This document shows, one piece after another, positions 4,001-28,760 of a stretch of 31,669 bases of DNA (position 1 is the first letter of the stretch; the number at the start of each line of letters is the position of its first letter). The translations under genes and the position numbers were made by a program. The notes beneath the pieces were generated by a model that saw only the letters and a list, made by a program, of their open reading frames with translations, made no database searches and was not told the origin of the DNA. Source of the DNA: a virus; the IMG/VR virus record IMGVR_UViG_3300037858_000055, positions 1 to 31,669 of that record; one strand, given 5' to 3'.

Positions 4001-4669
4001 TCAACTATTCTCCTGGCTTTTTCGCTCCGCCTCAGCTAACCGCTCGGCAATGCCTTGCTCAATCCTGGACAATAACTCTGATTGTCGCCGTGGTCCGTTC
4101 AGATCCTGCTGTTGCATATCTTCATCAAGCCTGGCCGTTACTCCCCGGATGCGGCTCCAGGCTTGATTTATATCATGCTCATTCTTCGCAATGGCATGAT
4201 CCATCCGCTCGATGACCGACAGTACCTCCGTCACACTGGGCATCTTCTGGATAAGCGCCCCGACCGCAACCTGTTGCTTCATCATTGTTGTTTGCATATC
4301 GGTGATGGCATTGCGCATGCTGGTCAACTCAGCCAGCATCTGTGCCTGCACCGCTATGTTTTGCTCATTCTGCTTCATCGAGACTTCAAGTTGGCTTTGC
4401 ATCCAGTTGAACACCTCACGGGTCATCTCTCGGTTTTCCCGTTGTGCGGTAAGCTCCTGCTCCAGCCGACGCTCGGTTATCAAGAGTTCTGAGGCCTGTT
4501 CTTTTTCGTGGAATTCCTGATTTTGCTGCACACGTTGGATCTCGAACTCGACCCGCCGTGCGACGTAGGGGGCCAGCCATTTGGCGGCCGCCCCGATCAT
4601 CAGGAGGATAATACCGAGCTGGCCGGGCCCACTGGCCAGCAGTGACCGGGCAAACTCGTCCCAGGTCAT
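4001..4669 (-). CDS. Membrane-anchored coiled-coil protein (222 aa)
   Basis: One hydrophobic helix lies at about residues 16-37 (GIILLMIGAAAKWLAPYVA). It is followed by about 180 residues of almost uninterrupted charged and Gln-rich helix (EFEIQRVQQNQEFHEKEQAS, RLEQELTAQRENREMTREV), ending in LSRIEQGIAERLAEAERK. The layout of one anchor plus a long coiled coil resembles spanin-like or receptor-stalk proteins, but no lipobox or catalytic motif is present. The start overlaps the receiver-domain stop by four bases, so the two are translationally coupled. It is the last gene of the leftward operon. It could be the output partner of the response regulator or a structural component of lysis. Both are inference. 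Confidence 0.65.
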   Translation of the reverse strand: MTWDEFARSLLASGPGQLGIILLMIGAAAKWLAPYVARRVEFEIQRVQQNQEFHEKEQASELLITERRLEQELTAQRENREMTREVFNWMQSQLEVSMKQNEQNIAVQAQMLAELTSMRNAITDMQTTMMKQQVAVGALIQKMPSVTEVLSVIERMDHAIAKNEHDINQAWSRIRGVTARLDEDMQQQDLNGPRRQSELLSRIEQGIAERLAEAERKSQENS

Positions 4670-5067
4670 GTCAATCCTGCTCGAATCGCAGCTAGTACAT
4701 CGTCAAAGCTGAACGGCTTGGTAAAGTACCAATCAATCAACTGTTTACCATTGACCGGGTGACGGGCCTGCTTCTCTACATCCGGTGTTCCAAACGCGGT
4801 GATCATGATAATGACCGTGTCTGGGTACGCTTCTCGGATCTTCGTCGCAAGCTCAAGCCCGTTCATGCTGGGCATGTTGTAGTCGGTAATGACAAGCCGG
4901 GCCGGATATTGCTGCATGGTGTTCCATGCAGCCAGGCCGTCAATGGCGACCAGGATTCGCTCATTCTTCCATTCAAGCTCGATGATGCGCTTGATGATGG
5001 TCAGGATGTCGGTTTCATCCTCGACCAGAAGTATCCCCTCCGGCGTCTGTTCGTTCTGTTTTCGCAT
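4666..5067 (-). CDS. Stand-alone response-regulator receiver domain
   Basis: This 133-residue protein is a complete CheY-like receiver with no output domain. The acidic pair is E16-D17 in ILLVEDETD. The phospho-acceptor is D62 in LVITDYNMPSMNG, the switch Thr is T90 in IIMITAFG, and the conserved Lys is K117 in WYFTKPFSFDDVL. The loop between T90 and K117 is 27 residues, about five longer than in CheY. All residues needed for phosphorylation are intact. The start ATG 5067 lies 53 bases inside the end of the holin-like gene, with AAAGGGG just upstream. It sits between lysis-type membrane genes, so phosphorylation by a host kinase could feed into phage lysis or behaviour (inference). Assignment to the family is secure. 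Confidence 0.92.
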   Translation of the reverse strand: MRKQNEQTPEGILLVEDETDILTIIKRIIELEWKNERILVAIDGLAAWNTMQQYPARLVITDYNMPSMNGLELATKIREAYPDTVIIMITAFGTPDVEKQARHPVNGKQLIDWYFTKPFSFDDVLAAIRAGLT

Positions 5068-5413
5068 ACCCCTTTATTTCCGGCGATAAGTCGGTTAGTC
5101 CGTGGTACACCTGATTCACGACCGGGGCCAGCAATGAGGTGCTTATAATTGTCCAGTATGAGTCATGTGTCATGTACGAAAGCGGAATAGCCAGCAGCGC
5201 CGCAATGACAATCGGGAAGACCATCGCTGTCTGGCGTGCATAGCGCGGCGCATGTAAGAGTTTGTACAACAGAACCAGGACTTTTCCTGGTTGTCGCTTC
5301 GGTGGCGGAAAGACGTTCTTTATCCGCTCAAACAGTAATGAGGCAATGACCCCGGCTCCGCTGAATGTGGCACCGTAACTCAGAACAGCGATGAGTTGTT
5401 CGTTGGGCATCAT
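5015..5413 (-). CDS. Holin-like membrane protein (132 aa)
   Basis: Three hydrophobic segments are visible: about residues 6-27 (LIAVLSYGATFSGAGVIASLL), 63-82 (AMVFPIVIAALLAIPLSYM) and 86-105 (YWTIISTSLLAPVVNQVYHG). The loop between the first two is basic (PPPKRQPGK) and the C-terminus is charged. It begins immediately downstream of the endolysin with a four-base overlap, the classical holin-next-to-lysin arrangement, and its size fits a holin. No holin family is recognised by sequence. The last 53 bases also encode the start of the receiver protein in another frame. An alternative is a small transporter-like or sensor membrane protein that partners the receiver. Confidence 0.6.
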   Translation of the reverse strand: MMPNEQLIAVLSYGATFSGAGVIASLLFERIKNVFPPPKRQPGKVLVLLYKLLHAPRYARQTAMVFPIVIAALLAIPLSYMTHDSYWTIISTSLLAPVVNQVYHGLTDLSPEIKGYAKTERTDAGGDTSGRG

Positions 5414-6855
5414 TGGACCTCTTTCAACGCCCTGCGTGCCCGATTCAAGATATTCATCCCATAAGCCAAATTATCATATGGCTCAGGTATCGACTGACCA
5501 GCATTGACAACTGCCCACTTTTGATGCAGATCGACCCACTTCGGAGCCGAGCCCCGGCCATGACTCTGGAGCAGCGGTCCCAGTCGAGGATTAGCATCTG
5601 CGATAGCCAGGAGGAATGATGTGTCGTCTTCCCGGTCAGCATAGTGATACAGATGGAGACATTGTACAAACACAGCTTCTTCAATGGTGCCAAATGCTTC
5701 GCCCCTGGCACCATCGTTTGTCGCGCCAATTCCGGCAACATTGTTGTATGTTTTGAATCGCTCTGATTGAAATCCTCCGGTTTCTTTGTCGGCCTGGTGC
5801 AACGCAATCCAGTTCGAGATGCCAAATAATTGGCTACAATAACCATAAGATATGGTTAGGGTTTCAGCCAGATCATCTGGCAATGATCGTTTTGTCATTA
5901 ACCAGCTTTTGATCTGTTGATTATCTACAAATGGACCTCCGATGATATCTGCACTATCCGGGATGCCCATGTCATCTTCTGGCTCTTTCTGGCGGTCTTC
6001 AACGAGAGTAAGAGCACTCATATGGATAAACCCCTCATTCCACTGCTGGTCAGGTACATAAGCCATATGTACCCACCTCTTTTCCCCTTGGATAGTCTCT
6101 CCGGATTCATCGTATTTGATGACATCAACAACAATTATACGCGGATTTTCTGTTGTCCCCGGCTTAATGTTCCGAACAACATCATAGTGACGTGATGGTC
6201 CGGTTCGTATCGTTGCTCGAATACCTTGCTTGACAGCATATCGTTGCATGGTCTTGAGTGGAGGATGCTCAACGACTGGCGTTTGTTTTATAAAACCACC
6301 GCTAGAGCGGTATTGTTTAACAGCTTCCATGAGTGGTGTGCCGGGGCAATATGCAGTTGTACCAAGTTCAACATGTCCAAGCACCTTTTGGCGTGGAATA
6401 TTGAATTCTTGACATAACGTATGGATAAGTGTAAGCATGCCTTGTTTCTGTTCGCCGGTCGGTTGCTGATACTGCATTGTTTTCTCATTTAGGCCAATTG
6501 GGACATGAATAGCAATCCCCTTCGGGTTTGCTTTGCTATGGCCACAATGCCACAGGCTTGATGTTAATTCTCTGGTTTGCAAGATTTCACCATTAGCGCC
6601 GATCACATAGTGATATTGCAGTCCATCAGCCCCGGACGGCACACCTGCCCACCCCTTCTGCATTTGCCAGTCTACGTCTATCCTCAACTGCTCCATCAGT
6701 CCCGGCATGGCAAGCCGGTTGGTAGCGACTGGCGGGCCGTTGAAGTGAGCCACGATATAGGAAATATCGGAAAGACGCCGCCATCCGATAGTCCAGCCTG
6801 CCCGTGGGAGTTGCGTGATGATATTACGTATTGGAAGGTCTGCGAGCTTACTCAT
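5410..6855 (-). CDS. Two-enzyme endolysin: amidase + SH3 + glucosaminidase-like
   Basis: Residues about 20-180 form an N-acetylmuramoyl-L-alanine amidase of the Amidase_2/PGRP type. H37 lies in SYIVAHFNG, WHCGHSKANPKGIAIHV is the histidine-rich strand, and GHVELGTTAYCPG carries H161 and C170; H37, H161 and C170 are the likely zinc ligands. Residues about 205-285 look like a bacterial SH3 domain (GIRATIRTGPSRHYDVV, GFIHMSAL). Residues about 320-475 match a glucosaminidase-type fold with LHQADKETGGF (candidate catalytic E358) followed by YNNVAGIG. The protein would cut both the peptide stem and the glycan of peptidoglycan. At 481 aa it is long for a phage lysin, consistent with two enzymes. It overlaps the SH3 gene and the holin-like gene by four bases each. 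No signal peptide is present, so a holin is needed for export. The region is AT-richer than the capsid genes. Confidence 0.85.
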   Translation of the reverse strand: MSKLADLPIRNIITQLPRAGWTIGWRRLSDISYIVAHFNGPPVATNRLAMPGLMEQLRIDVDWQMQKGWAGVPSGADGLQYHYVIGANGEILQTRELTSSLWHCGHSKANPKGIAIHVPIGLNEKTMQYQQPTGEQKQGMLTLIHTLCQEFNIPRQKVLGHVELGTTAYCPGTPLMEAVKQYRSSGGFIKQTPVVEHPPLKTMQRYAVKQGIRATIRTGPSRHYDVVRNIKPGTTENPRIIVVDVIKYDESGETIQGEKRWVHMAYVPDQQWNEGFIHMSALTLVEDRQKEPEDDMGIPDSADIIGGPFVDNQQIKSWLMTKRSLPDDLAETLTISYGYCSQLFGISNWIALHQADKETGGFQSERFKTYNNVAGIGATNDGARGEAFGTIEEAVFVQCLHLYHYADREDDTSFLLAIADANPRLGPLLQSHGRGSAPKWVDLHQKWAVVNAGQSIPEPYDNLAYGMNILNRARRALKEVQ

Positions 6856-7073
6856 TTATTTTCTCCTTCCAGGATAAGGTTGTTTCGATGGATATATCCC
6901 ACTCGTTCTGTGTTGTTTTTATGGTTATAGATCTTAATCTGTACCCATCCGGCATGTGGTCGATCCAGTGCATGACCAGAGACAATCACTCCTTCACGCA
7001 GTCGGAATAATGGTCTTCCGGCATGTGGCCCGGAATATACCGAGGTGTCGGGTTTTGTTCGGTAGGATGGCAT
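6852..7073 (-). CDS. Small SH3-domain protein (73 aa)
   Basis: The whole protein is one bacterial SH3-like domain. TSVYSGPHAGRPLFRLREG matches the usual N-terminal strand with a sxPs-G-x-L motif, followed by GWVQIKIYNH and GYIHRNNL as the last strands. Such domains bind cell-wall peptide or glycan. It lies directly upstream of the endolysin with a four-base overlap, and may be a wall-binding subunit that works with the lysin, which has its own SH3 domain. No signal peptide is present. A free SH3 protein coupled to a lysin is uncommon; it may be a detached duplicate. Confidence 0.7.
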   Translation of the reverse strand: MPSYRTKPDTSVYSGPHAGRPLFRLREGVIVSGHALDRPHAGWVQIKIYNHKNNTERVGYIHRNNLILEGENK

Positions 7074-7075
7074 GT

Positions 7076-7426
7076 TTATGGTGCCGTTTCAGAAGTACCA
7101 TCAGGCCATATTTTGTACAGAACATCCTCAACTGTCATGCCGCTATTTGCGTCTACAACGGTTTCCATAAATCCATGAACAGCATCTGTTGTTGCTGCTA
7201 ATGCCGCAGCGCGAGCAGCACTCATGGTTGTCCCGGGTAATGCATGGTCTGGTGTTGCTGCAGCCGCAATATCGTCTGCAATTGCATTCGCATGATACAT
7301 TCGTCGTGCTTTGGTTACTCGCTCAAGAATGCGTCGTGCGTCTTCAGTAAGTGCTTCGACTTCCTTGCGCCAATGTTCAATTGGTGAAGGCGTTGTTGTT
7401 GAACTTGTAACAATTGGATCTGACAT
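7076..7426 (-). CDS. Hypothetical tail- or lysis-region protein (116 aa)
   Basis: The chosen start, ATG 7424-7426, is preceded by TTAGGAGTGTGACT, a strong ribosome site; a longer reading up to 7513 would overlap the lectin gene without a ribosome site. The protein is largely helical: a polar Ser/Thr-rich N-terminus, a charged helix (EALTEDARRILERVTKARR), an Ala-rich middle (AAARAAALAATTD), and a C-terminus with MTVEDVLYKIWPDGT. No membrane helix or enzymatic motif is present. It may be a phage structural or chaperone-like protein for the preceding fibre genes. It is not recognised. Confidence 0.6.
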   Translation of the reverse strand: MSDPIVTSSTTTPSPIEHWRKEVEALTEDARRILERVTKARRMYHANAIADDIAAAATPDHALPGTTMSAARAAALAATTDAVHGFMETVVDANSGMTVEDVLYKIWPDGTSETAP

Positions 7427-7428
7427 AG

Positions 7429-8151
7429 TCACACTCCTAACAAAACACCATACTTGCTTGCGAAGTAGTTTTCCCACTCCTCGATGACCGAAATAATCGG
7501 AAGAGATGACCACAAGGCAGCTTCTAAAATATGTAGATGTACCGAATGTTTGTCACTTTTTCCGAGCATCCATTGCGATTCACTACTTGTGTATCGGTGC
7601 CCGAACACATAAATGTTCACCTGGTCAATTGGATCAATCCGATCTCCAGGTGATTGATCAACGCCATTGCGTCGTTGAATGATCTCTGGAGATGTATGAA
7701 ATGCTCCGGTATATCCATCATTGAAAAGGTAAGCGCGACTGCTATCATCGTGATACCGCCCCAGGCATGCACCATATCCCTGCCACTTTGTTGTTGGCGA
7801 ATACGCCACGGCAATCTGTGCAACGGCGGGGAAGTGTTGATAGGTACGAAGAGCAGCATGAAAATTATTATTTTCTTGACTGAAATATGATGCGTACCCG
7901 TTCACGCTTGAGCACGTAATGGGTCGGATACTCGATACCGGGAACATATGACGCTCATTCCCAGATATGTCATGCGCAATCTCAATTGCATCTCCCGGAG
8001 TTGCCGGAACGCCAAATCGTCTGTCGGAGAATGCATGTTCAGCGCTATACCATGCAAGAACATTGCTTGTATCGACTGCTGTGTTATACAAACGGCGCTC
8101 TCGCGTCCTATACGCCGGTCCCGAGCGCTGTGGAAAGGAATAAAATGTCAT
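7429..8151 (-). CDS. Lectin-like (LamG/ConA-type) adsorption protein A (240 aa)
   Basis: The N-terminal segment GPAYRTRERRLYN leads into LAWYSAEHAFSD, then PGDAIEIAHDISGNERH. These are the recurrent opening strands of concanavalin A/laminin-G-like phage tail domains (xxLxxWYsAd..., D.SGNG.H). The C-terminus IEEWENYFASKYGVLL matches the usual closing helix of the family. The protein is a paralogue of the neighbouring gene at 8148-8906, aligned over SD...GD.I....D.S.N...H. It likely forms part of the tail tip that binds host surface glycans; this is inferred. It overlaps the neighbour by four bases and is AT-richer than the head genes. A trimeric fibre tip is the alternative. Confidence 0.65.
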   Translation of the reverse strand: MTFYSFPQRSGPAYRTRERRLYNTAVDTSNVLAWYSAEHAFSDRRFGVPATPGDAIEIAHDISGNERHMFPVSSIRPITCSSVNGYASYFSQENNNFHAALRTYQHFPAVAQIAVAYSPTTKWQGYGACLGRYHDDSSRAYLFNDGYTGAFHTSPEIIQRRNGVDQSPGDRIDPIDQVNIYVFGHRYTSSESQWMLGKSDKHSVHLHILEAALWSSLPIISVIEEWENYFASKYGVLLGV

Positions 8152-8906
8152 ACAAAATACCTTTCCATCAGAACCTGTTCAATCCACTTGATAATCTCCT
8201 GGTCCATCGTTGACAGAAGAACTATTTCATAGATCAGTAAACTGCACACATAACGTTCGAGATCTGATGTTGCGCCAATTTCCCATGGATACACAGCCCC
8301 TGGATTGTGATGCCCAATCGTGGCAACACATGGGCGAGTTATATCGAAAATTGCGCAACTATCCGGCCATGCCTCCGATGAATTGGGAGATGGGTACCCC
8401 CTGCTTCGCAACAGCGGAATGCGTGAGGCGTGATCAAAGTGACCATACGCACCAGAAGGGAATAAATATGGACGAAACCCGTTATTTGAAAGATTCACTG
8501 CTCGTCCACATACGGCCCCATGCCAGGACCACGTATCACTCGGTGAGCGGAACGCAATGACCTGTGCTTGCGCCGGGAACGATTGCGCTGTCTTGACTTG
8601 ATAGTTAGAACTGCGGTGTGTTGATGTAGACAGTACTTCTATCGCAGGAAAACTATAATCGGTCACTGCGTTCAACGATGGATATGCTGCATCCCCAACA
8701 CAGTCATGTCCATTTCTGCTCAAATCCTCAACGACAAGAATAGTGTCGCCAGTATTCGGTCGTGTCGTCTTCGCACTATCAGACCATACTGCATCCGCCC
8801 GATAGTGGGCTAGAACTTCGGGCATACCAGAGATGCCGTGATTGAGTACACGGCGCTGCGAAAAATCATATTTCGGTCCGGGCCGCTTTGGTAACCCATG
8901 CCACAT
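8148..8906 (-). CDS. Lectin-like (LamG/ConA-type) adsorption protein B (252 aa)
   Basis: The protein aligns with its downstream neighbour over its first 80 residues: LPKRPGPKYDFSQRRVLNHG matches the corresponding region, then VLAHYRADAVWSD and NTGDTILVVEDLSRNGHD. Middle strands (PAQAQVIAFRSPSDTW, GAVCGRA, FRPYLFPSGAYGHFDHA) also match in order. It ends with a degenerate closing helix (QEIIKWIEQVLMERYFV). Sequence identity between the two is low, so the duplication is old or under diversifying selection. It starts with TAATG directly after the previous stop. A receptor-binding role is inferred from family and location. Confidence 0.65.
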   Translation of the reverse strand: MWHGLPKRPGPKYDFSQRRVLNHGISGMPEVLAHYRADAVWSDSAKTTRPNTGDTILVVEDLSRNGHDCVGDAAYPSLNAVTDYSFPAIEVLSTSTHRSSNYQVKTAQSFPAQAQVIAFRSPSDTWSWHGAVCGRAVNLSNNGFRPYLFPSGAYGHFDHASRIPLLRSRGYPSPNSSEAWPDSCAIFDITRPCVATIGHHNPGAVYPWEIGATSDLERYVCSLLIYEIVLLSTMDQEIIKWIEQVLMERYFV

Positions 8907-27709: not shown

Positions 27710-28384
27710 CTACTCGCCTTTCCGGCCCTGCCACGCCGCCATAATATTCCGCATCGACAGATCGAACGCCGTATATGGCGCATCATGTTCGTCGCCCCAG
27801 CCTATCTCTCGCAAATTGACCCAGTGGCCTTTTGAACCTTTCTTCTGTCGCCAGAATGAAGCACGACTGGTCGCCATCTTGCTTGCCATATTTCCGTCGG
27901 CAGATACAACATCCATATAGTGCCATAATGTCATTTGCTTTTGCGGTGACCCGCCCAAAAGATGCACAGGCCAGTCCCCAAATTCCCAGATAGGCACACA
28001 CGTCCCACCAAATTTCGTGGGTACGCTATAGCCAAGGATGACATCAGCATCGCCTATTCGACGCGGCAGCAACTCAATAATGCCGCTGATTTTCGGAATA
28101 ATGATGACACATGCAACATATTGCGCTGCCTCCTCTGCCCAGTCGAGAACCTCATGCAATTGATCGCGTGTCTCCAGATCGAGCACCGTCGCCATTGCTG
28201 GGCGATGCTGTGCCAGTGCTGCCATATAGCGCTGGCGATCTGGTTTTTTCCAGTTCTGATCTGCAAACCAGACCGGGGCATACGTCGTACATGGCAGTTG
28301 CGCACCGTAGTGCCAGCCGTGATAGACAGCACTCTCCGCAAAGCGCTGATTGCCACCGGCGCACATGATGAGCGTCGGTGGCAT
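27710..28384 (-). CDS. DUF6610-like protein, possible TGT/DpdA relative (224 aa)
   Basis: The start is ATG 28382-28384, one base after the upstream stop, with GAGGGGGACGGCTGAT before it. The opening PTLIMCAGGNQRFAESAVY, YGAQLPCTTYAPVWFADQNW and KKPDRQRYMAALAQHRPAMA match what I remember of the phage DUF6610 family. So do ATVLDLE, ACVIIIPKISG, GYSVPTKFGGT and VHLLGGSPQKQ. The family is thought to be remotely related to tRNA-guanine transglycosylases and DpdA, which insert 7-deazaguanines into nucleic acid. I cannot confirm this here. D69 and the HLLGGSP loop (141-147) are candidate active-site elements. No queuosine-pathway gene is in the window, so the precursor would come from the host. Confidence 0.65.
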   Translation of the reverse strand: MPPTLIMCAGGNQRFAESAVYHGWHYGAQLPCTTYAPVWFADQNWKKPDRQRYMAALAQHRPAMATVLDLETRDQLHEVLDWAEEAAQYVACVIIIPKISGIIELLPRRIGDADVILGYSVPTKFGGTCVPIWEFGDWPVHLLGGSPQKQMTLWHYMDVVSADGNMASKMATSRASFWRQKKGSKGHWVNLREIGWGDEHDAPYTAFDLSMRNIMAAWQGRKGE

Positions 28385-28385
28385 A

Positions 28386-28760
28386 TCAGCCGTCCCCCTC
28401 CCCGCGCAATCCCGCTGGAACACGGTCAACTCCATAGTATTCCGGCTTACGTTTGTAGGCTTCCTGCTCAAATTCATCTGCAAACATTGGGTATCGCTTT
28501 TCAAGTCGTGCCCGTAACCGCTTGCGCCTGACTCGCTGCTTCGCTTCCAACGACCAGCGTTTTCCTTTGACTGGGGTCATATCAAACGCAATCGCCCACC
28601 CCGACCCATACCCTAACATCTCTTTCAGTTCTGTTATTTCCCGTGGGCATTCTCTGTTATCGGCTCCGACCTCACATAACACCCGTGGCTGACCATCAGG
28701 GGGGGCCTGATGTGGTAATCCCCACATTACAAACCAGCGAAACGGTTTTGCATTCTGCAT
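28386..28760 (-). CDS. Partner protein of the DUF6610-like gene (124 aa)
   Basis: ATG 28758-28760 follows GGAGAGAGCT. The protein opens QNAKPFRWFVMWGLPHQAPP, then LCEVGADNRECPREITEL and LGYGSGWAIAFDMTPVKGKR. It ends with a strongly basic helix, VRRKRLRARLEKRYPMFADE, and KRKPEYYG. I recall this arrangement near DUF6610 genes in phages, but have no proof. The basic helix suggests nucleic-acid binding. It is coupled to the downstream gene (one base gap), which supports a joint function. Confidence 0.5.
   Translation of the reverse strand: MQNAKPFRWFVMWGLPHQAPPDGQPRVLCEVGADNRECPREITELKEMLGYGSGWAIAFDMTPVKGKRWSLEAKQRVRRKRLRARLEKRYPMFADEFEQEAYKRKPEYYGVDRVPAGLRGEGDG

Follow-up and report, generated by a model that had tools for sequence, protein, structure and literature searches.

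A response-regulator receiver encoded among phage lysis genes: a possible input from host signalling

A signalling protein encoded in the middle of a set of phage lysis genes raises the question of what it does there. It occurs in IMGVR_UViG_3300037858_000055, a virus record from IMG/VR with a length of 31,669 bases, and the window analysed here is that entire stretch of DNA. The late operon lies on the minus strand and runs through the terminase, portal, protease and other structural genes, which are named from their positions and from similarity among the terminase relatives, to a lysis end. The lysis end consists, in this order, of genes for an Amidase_2 endolysin, a holin-like protein, a receiver and a membrane-anchored coiled coil. 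Genes of the plus strand converge on it 22 bases beyond the coiled-coil gene. The features of the lysis end are as follows.

5410–6855, minus strand: endolysin, an N-acetylmuramoyl-L-alanine amidase (Amidase_2) of 481 amino acids (Pfam Amidase_2 4.2e-13; PHROG endolysin 8.8e-16)
5015–5413, minus strand: putative holin-like membrane protein of 132 amino acids with two to three hydrophobic stretches (weak PHROG holin match; homologue in L156; overlap with the endolysin gene)
5015–5067, minus strand: 53-base overlap of the 3' end of the holin-like gene with receiver codons 1–17, including the beta-1 strand ILLVED (both frames translated)
4666–5067, minus strand: stand-alone CheY-like receiver of 133 amino acids (Pfam Response_reg 2.2e-20; alignment; trees)
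4666–4669, minus strand: 4-base stop/start overlap, ATGA, of the receiver and coiled-coil genes, GTGA in the related record G001 (sequence of both records)
4001–4669, minus strand: membrane-anchored coiled-coil protein of 222 amino acids with one transmembrane segment, residues 18–36 (hydropathy and long-helix scan)

The first-pass annotation had described a complete CheY-like receiver situated between the two membrane genes and directly after the endolysin, and had proposed that its phosphorylation by a host kinase could gate lysis timing, membrane function or host motility. The coordinates bear out the position between the holin-like and coiled-coil genes. The receiver belongs to the same operon as the endolysin, but it is the second gene after it, with the holin-like gene in between.

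The completeness of the receiver was confirmed by both profile and alignment. The protein matches the Pfam family Response_reg (PF00072) over profile positions 1–111 of 111, scoring 73.3 bits where the cut-off is 30.2, and the residues expected for phosphorylation (E16/D17, D62, T90 and K117) are invariant in the alignment with its cellular relatives. Y114, three residues before K117, occupies the position of the switch tyrosine of CheY. Judged by this full-domain match and by the complete set of phosphorylation residues, the protein is a member of PF00072. Single-sequence AlphaFold models of the receiver (pLDDT 58) and of the holin-like protein (pLDDT 46) were too poor for fold searches. At an E-value of 0.1, HATPase_c, the ATPase domain of histidine kinases, was not found in the window or in G001, both of which are possibly incomplete records. 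The two records thus hold a receiver and not a complete two-component system, which would include a cognate phage-encoded histidine kinase. As neither encodes a recognisable kinase, the phosphate for the receiver would have to come from the host.

The receiver gene is tightly coupled to its neighbours, and the overlaps of 53 and 4 bases reported earlier are both real. The longer one is forced, because the beta-1 strand of the receiver lies within it and no stop codon occurs earlier in the upstream frame; choosing another start codon does not remove it. The holin-like gene in turn overlaps the Amidase_2 gene by 4 bases (5410–5413), so that its product is a small membrane protein encoded beside an endolysin, as is usual for a holin. 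The label "holin-like" is nevertheless a weak assignment that draws on a PHROG 9407 holin match at 0.012, the hydrophobic stretches and a homologue, 33% identical, which is encoded beside another Amidase_2 gene in L156; Pfam gave no match. The coiled-coil protein is the sole product with a transmembrane segment plus a long helix among the 40 called genes of the window. Positive charges follow its transmembrane segment and, by the positive-inside rule, its long helix is probably cytoplasmic. With its long part placed inside the cell in this way, the protein is unlikely to be a spanin.

Some other features of the record may be mentioned here. The gene of the endolysin and the two genes at 7429–8151 and 8148–8906 upstream of it, which together span 5410–8906, have a G+C content of 47–49% and a GC3 of about 0.42–0.45. 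The G+C content of the structural genes is clearly higher (60–63%), which suggests a separate origin of the stretch. A gene at 27710–28504 on the minus strand, upstream of the small terminase gene, gives a strong DUF6610 match (7.6e-39). PADLOC returned marginal matches only, which were given no weight. Relatives of the terminase were found in one Kouleothrix MAG and two other MAGs, as well as in IMG/VR records (45 loci). The phage probably infects Chloroflexota, and Chloroflexia is the probable host class.

The gene arrangement is not confined to a single record. G001, an IMG/VR record of 39.9 kb that is about 96% identical to the window where the two can be aligned, keeps the whole arrangement, which is therefore not due to chance. 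Its receiver is identical to that of the window over 132 residues. A 3-base deletion removes the last receiver residue, and the stop and start codons have shifted together, converting ATGA into GTGA and leaving the 4-base overlap in place. The cassette of G001, at about 99% and along the lysis stretch 99–100% identity, is too similar to that of the window to inform on selection. G001 also encodes a protein that looks by its sequence like an integrase, and the phage group is thus probably temperate.

The search for further phage relatives of the receiver, which had been proposed earlier, gave a divided answer: the same arrangement in G001 and otherwise no convincing relative in IMG/VR. The IMG/VR scans started from each of three proteins (receiver, holin-like and coiled-coil) and from alignments of the receiver and the holin-like protein, and they use short exact patterns that can miss distant relatives; essentially only G001 was convincing, and L170 gave a partial match of 31%. 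In INPHARED, matches to the receivers were mostly bacterial-looking records or full-length regulators, and the regions examined held kinase pairs, housekeeping genes or a larger multi-domain protein, and in no case a lysis cassette.

The relatives defined by the terminase show what the lysis end looks like when the receiver is missing. In L042 and L043 the terminase is closely preceded by genes for a membrane coiled coil, a small membrane protein and an Amidase_2-type protein that is a relative of the endolysin of the window (28%, about 1e-20), and there is no receiver. The trio of L156, which is probably what remains of a prophage in a Chloroflexia genome, consists of a membrane coiled coil, the homologue of the holin-like protein mentioned above and an Amidase_2 protein, again with no receiver. 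Homology among the coiled-coil proteins was not found (best E-value 0.059); they are alike in architecture and in place. Since the trio exists without the receiver, the coiled-coil gene of the window plausibly belongs to lysis, and the receiver is an optional addition and not a core part of the lysis machinery. Conservation together with the lysis genes in relatives, which would mark an antiholin-like lysis regulator, is not seen for the receiver.

Whole-record searches of 37 further terminase-related virus records, many of them fragments, found receivers only in G033 and G034, and four more terminase-related records searched in the same way had none. Three terminase-related lineages (the window plus G001; G033; G034) thus carry receivers, which are 17–25% identical to each other. 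In G033 and G034 the acidic residues, the Asp, the Ser/Thr and the Lys are in place, as judged by eye. The receiver region of G034 (IMGVR_UViG_3300049075_000009; L196, 7466–10336) contains, in this order, a gene for a transmembrane segment plus coil, a gene for a 135-residue protein, a receiver with its own C-terminal transmembrane segment and, following the receiver directly on its strand, a GH19 endolysin (Pfam 2.5e-6; PHROG endolysin 1.7e-32). That of G033 (IMGVR_UViG_3300037484_000683; L123, 9410–10769) lies upstream of the terminase genes. A gene for a 96-residue protein with a transmembrane segment plus coil is followed there by two tandem receivers and shares a 4-base overlap with the first, and no endolysin was recognised near these receivers.

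Genes of this membrane coiled-coil type are rare. Under one uniform rule, they amount to 1 of 40 genes in the window, 2 of 99 in G034 and, besides the receiver itself, 1 of 98 in G033, and in all three lineages one of them adjoins a receiver or lies two genes away. The rule was written after the cases had been seen, the number of lineages is three and the coil score is a rough measure, so that the recurrence is suggestive; it favours a role in the envelope or in lysis over that of a random passenger. Membrane genes lacking the receiver in related phages, which the first-pass annotation had named as evidence against its coupling idea, are in part provided by the three receiver-free trios; the unrelated receiver beside an endolysin in G034 speaks for the idea.

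By combining these observations, it is possible to propose, tentatively and with somewhat less than even confidence, that the receiver is an accessory phosphorylation input which acts on lysis through the coiled-coil protein. The connection with lysis suggested in the first-pass annotation is partly supported: it is favoured by the intact site, the tight coupling within the late operon, the lack of a phage kinase, the case of G034 and the recurrence of membrane coiled-coil genes; the receiver-free trios speak against it, as does the kinship of the receiver with a chromosomal protein of the Chloroflexia.

This kinship is well defined. Of 158 Chloroflexia genomes, 54 match the receiver at 1e-18, most of them with a single match, and the best matches are one particular stand-alone receiver of about 127 residues that is nearly identical across the class. 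The window receiver is 42–45% identical to these proteins in the best alignments. In the tree it groups with their family to the exclusion of the other sampled receivers (support 98/95), and the grouping persists after the longest branches have been removed and the rows thinned (98/94). The phage protein is not nested within the host group, and its branch is long (about 1.3 changes per site), which implies that the capture is old or that evolution has been fast. The beta3-alpha3 segment TDYNMPxMNGLxLA is nearly identical in the phage and host proteins. The alpha-1 helix and the alpha4-beta5 region have diverged, and the phage receiver has an insertion of five residues between alpha-4 and beta-5. 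The host protein, of which examples are found at L094 (1474–1857) and L106 (1474–1860), is an uncharacterised and strongly conserved signalling protein. In 19 of 30 loci it lies near a gene for an AEC-type transporter, so named from a look at the sequence and not from a family search.

The main alternative to a role in lysis control follows from this kinship. The phage protein might be a decoy of the Chloroflexia receiver, competing with it for a kinase or a target or draining phosphate, and its position among the lysis genes would then reflect late expression only. The match to a single conserved host receiver, the firm tree grouping and the shared beta3-alpha3 segment all agree with such a role, and binding of host two-component kinases by a phage protein is known from PIT4, an early gene product of the Pseudomonas aeruginosa phage LSL4 (PMC10714779). 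Close mimicry would, however, not keep the changes in alpha-1 and alpha4-beta5 or the insertion. The alpha-1 helix of receivers is important for the choice of kinase. A decoy also leaves unexplained why unrelated receivers recur near membrane coiled-coil genes in G033 and G034. We consider this explanation rather unlikely, while still the chief competitor.

A second alternative, distinctly less probable, is a moron-type gene, inserted close to where the late operon ends, that alters the physiology of the host or its behaviour (gliding, type IV pili or envelope stress) in lysogeny or infection. Accessory genes are often found at the ends of operons, most relatives are without the receiver gene, and the phage group is probably temperate. 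The receiver is not the last gene, however, since the coiled-coil gene follows it with a 4-base overlap, and the recurrent context speaks against a free-standing moron. As to motility, the 30 host receiver loci, with their transporter genes, showed no link to it, and this part of the earlier proposal has gained no supporting evidence. A functionless passenger captured from the host would fit the occurrence of the receiver in just two near-identical records, but it is very improbable, because all the catalytic residues are retained on so long a branch and the overlapping junction with the coiled-coil gene has been kept across the indel in G001.

The preferred reading, a phosphorylation input to lysis, can be described as a sequence of events. 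Late in infection, host histidine kinases or small phosphodonors would determine whether D62 is phosphorylated. In one of these two states the receiver would then bind the helix that the coiled-coil protein extends into the cytoplasm, most likely through the changed alpha4-beta5 side. The coiled-coil partner would shift the threshold, up or down, for the holin-like protein to permit amidase action. Without the receiver the core lysis module would still work; the receiver would add a dependence on the state of the host. The observed basis of this scheme is the gene content, the intact active site, the coupling of the genes, the Chloroflexia kinship and the recurrence; from these we infer phosphorylation during infection, binding and an effect of the receiver on lysis. 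As a single compact cassette contains all four genes and one change, at D62, should abolish the effect, gating of this kind can be tested directly.

The phage receiver can be compared with several known systems. It shares with the Chloroflexia stand-alone receiver the extent of the domain, the intact phosphorylation site and a supported common branch, and differs from it in location, the host gene being chromosomal and often near the transporter gene and the phage copy lying in a lysis module. Dedicated phage lysis regulators include antiholins, such as lambda S107 and T4 RI/RIII. The receiver would resemble these as a small phage protein that is encoded with the holin and sets the timing of lysis. 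To our knowledge, no lysis regulator is a phosphorylatable receiver that takes a signal from a host phosphorelay. The cues to which phage lysis clocks are known to respond are the accumulation of holin, membrane energy, superinfection and quorum signals. The PhoP-like regulator of Stenotrophomonas phage Bhz63 also contains a phage-encoded receiver domain; in contrast, it is a full-length regulator with its own kinase-like neighbour gene and is not encoded beside lysis genes. PIT4, too, is a phage protein concerned with host two-component systems, on which it acts, but it is made from an early gene and binds kinases, and its abstract mentions neither a receiver nor a link to lysis (PMC10714779). 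The cREC proteins of jumbo phages, which are divergent receivers associated with NAD/ADP-ribose enzymes but in no case with histidine kinase systems (PMC7824862), have the receiver fold in common with the window protein, whereas the latter scores with the classical Response_reg family; as that family fits, a cREC identity is not preferred. No precedent for a receiver in a phage lysis module was found in the literature searched, which was mainly open access. Phage lysis modules with accessory control are already known.

Since at least one distant relative, G034, has an unrelated receiver in a similar position, phage lysis may listen to a host signalling system. A broader generalisation, which we regard as doubtful, is that some tailed phages in the clade defined by this terminase have, more than once, adopted host-type receivers to work with a membrane-anchored coiled-coil regulator of lysis. 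The state of a host phosphorelay would then decide when the cell is opened, in the manner of a lysis clock gated by phosphorylation. If the decoy explanation is right, the strongly conserved Chloroflexia receiver would be important enough for a phage to copy. If, on the other hand, the receiver is an input to lysis, it would tie lysis to host two-component signalling without a sensor carried by the phage.
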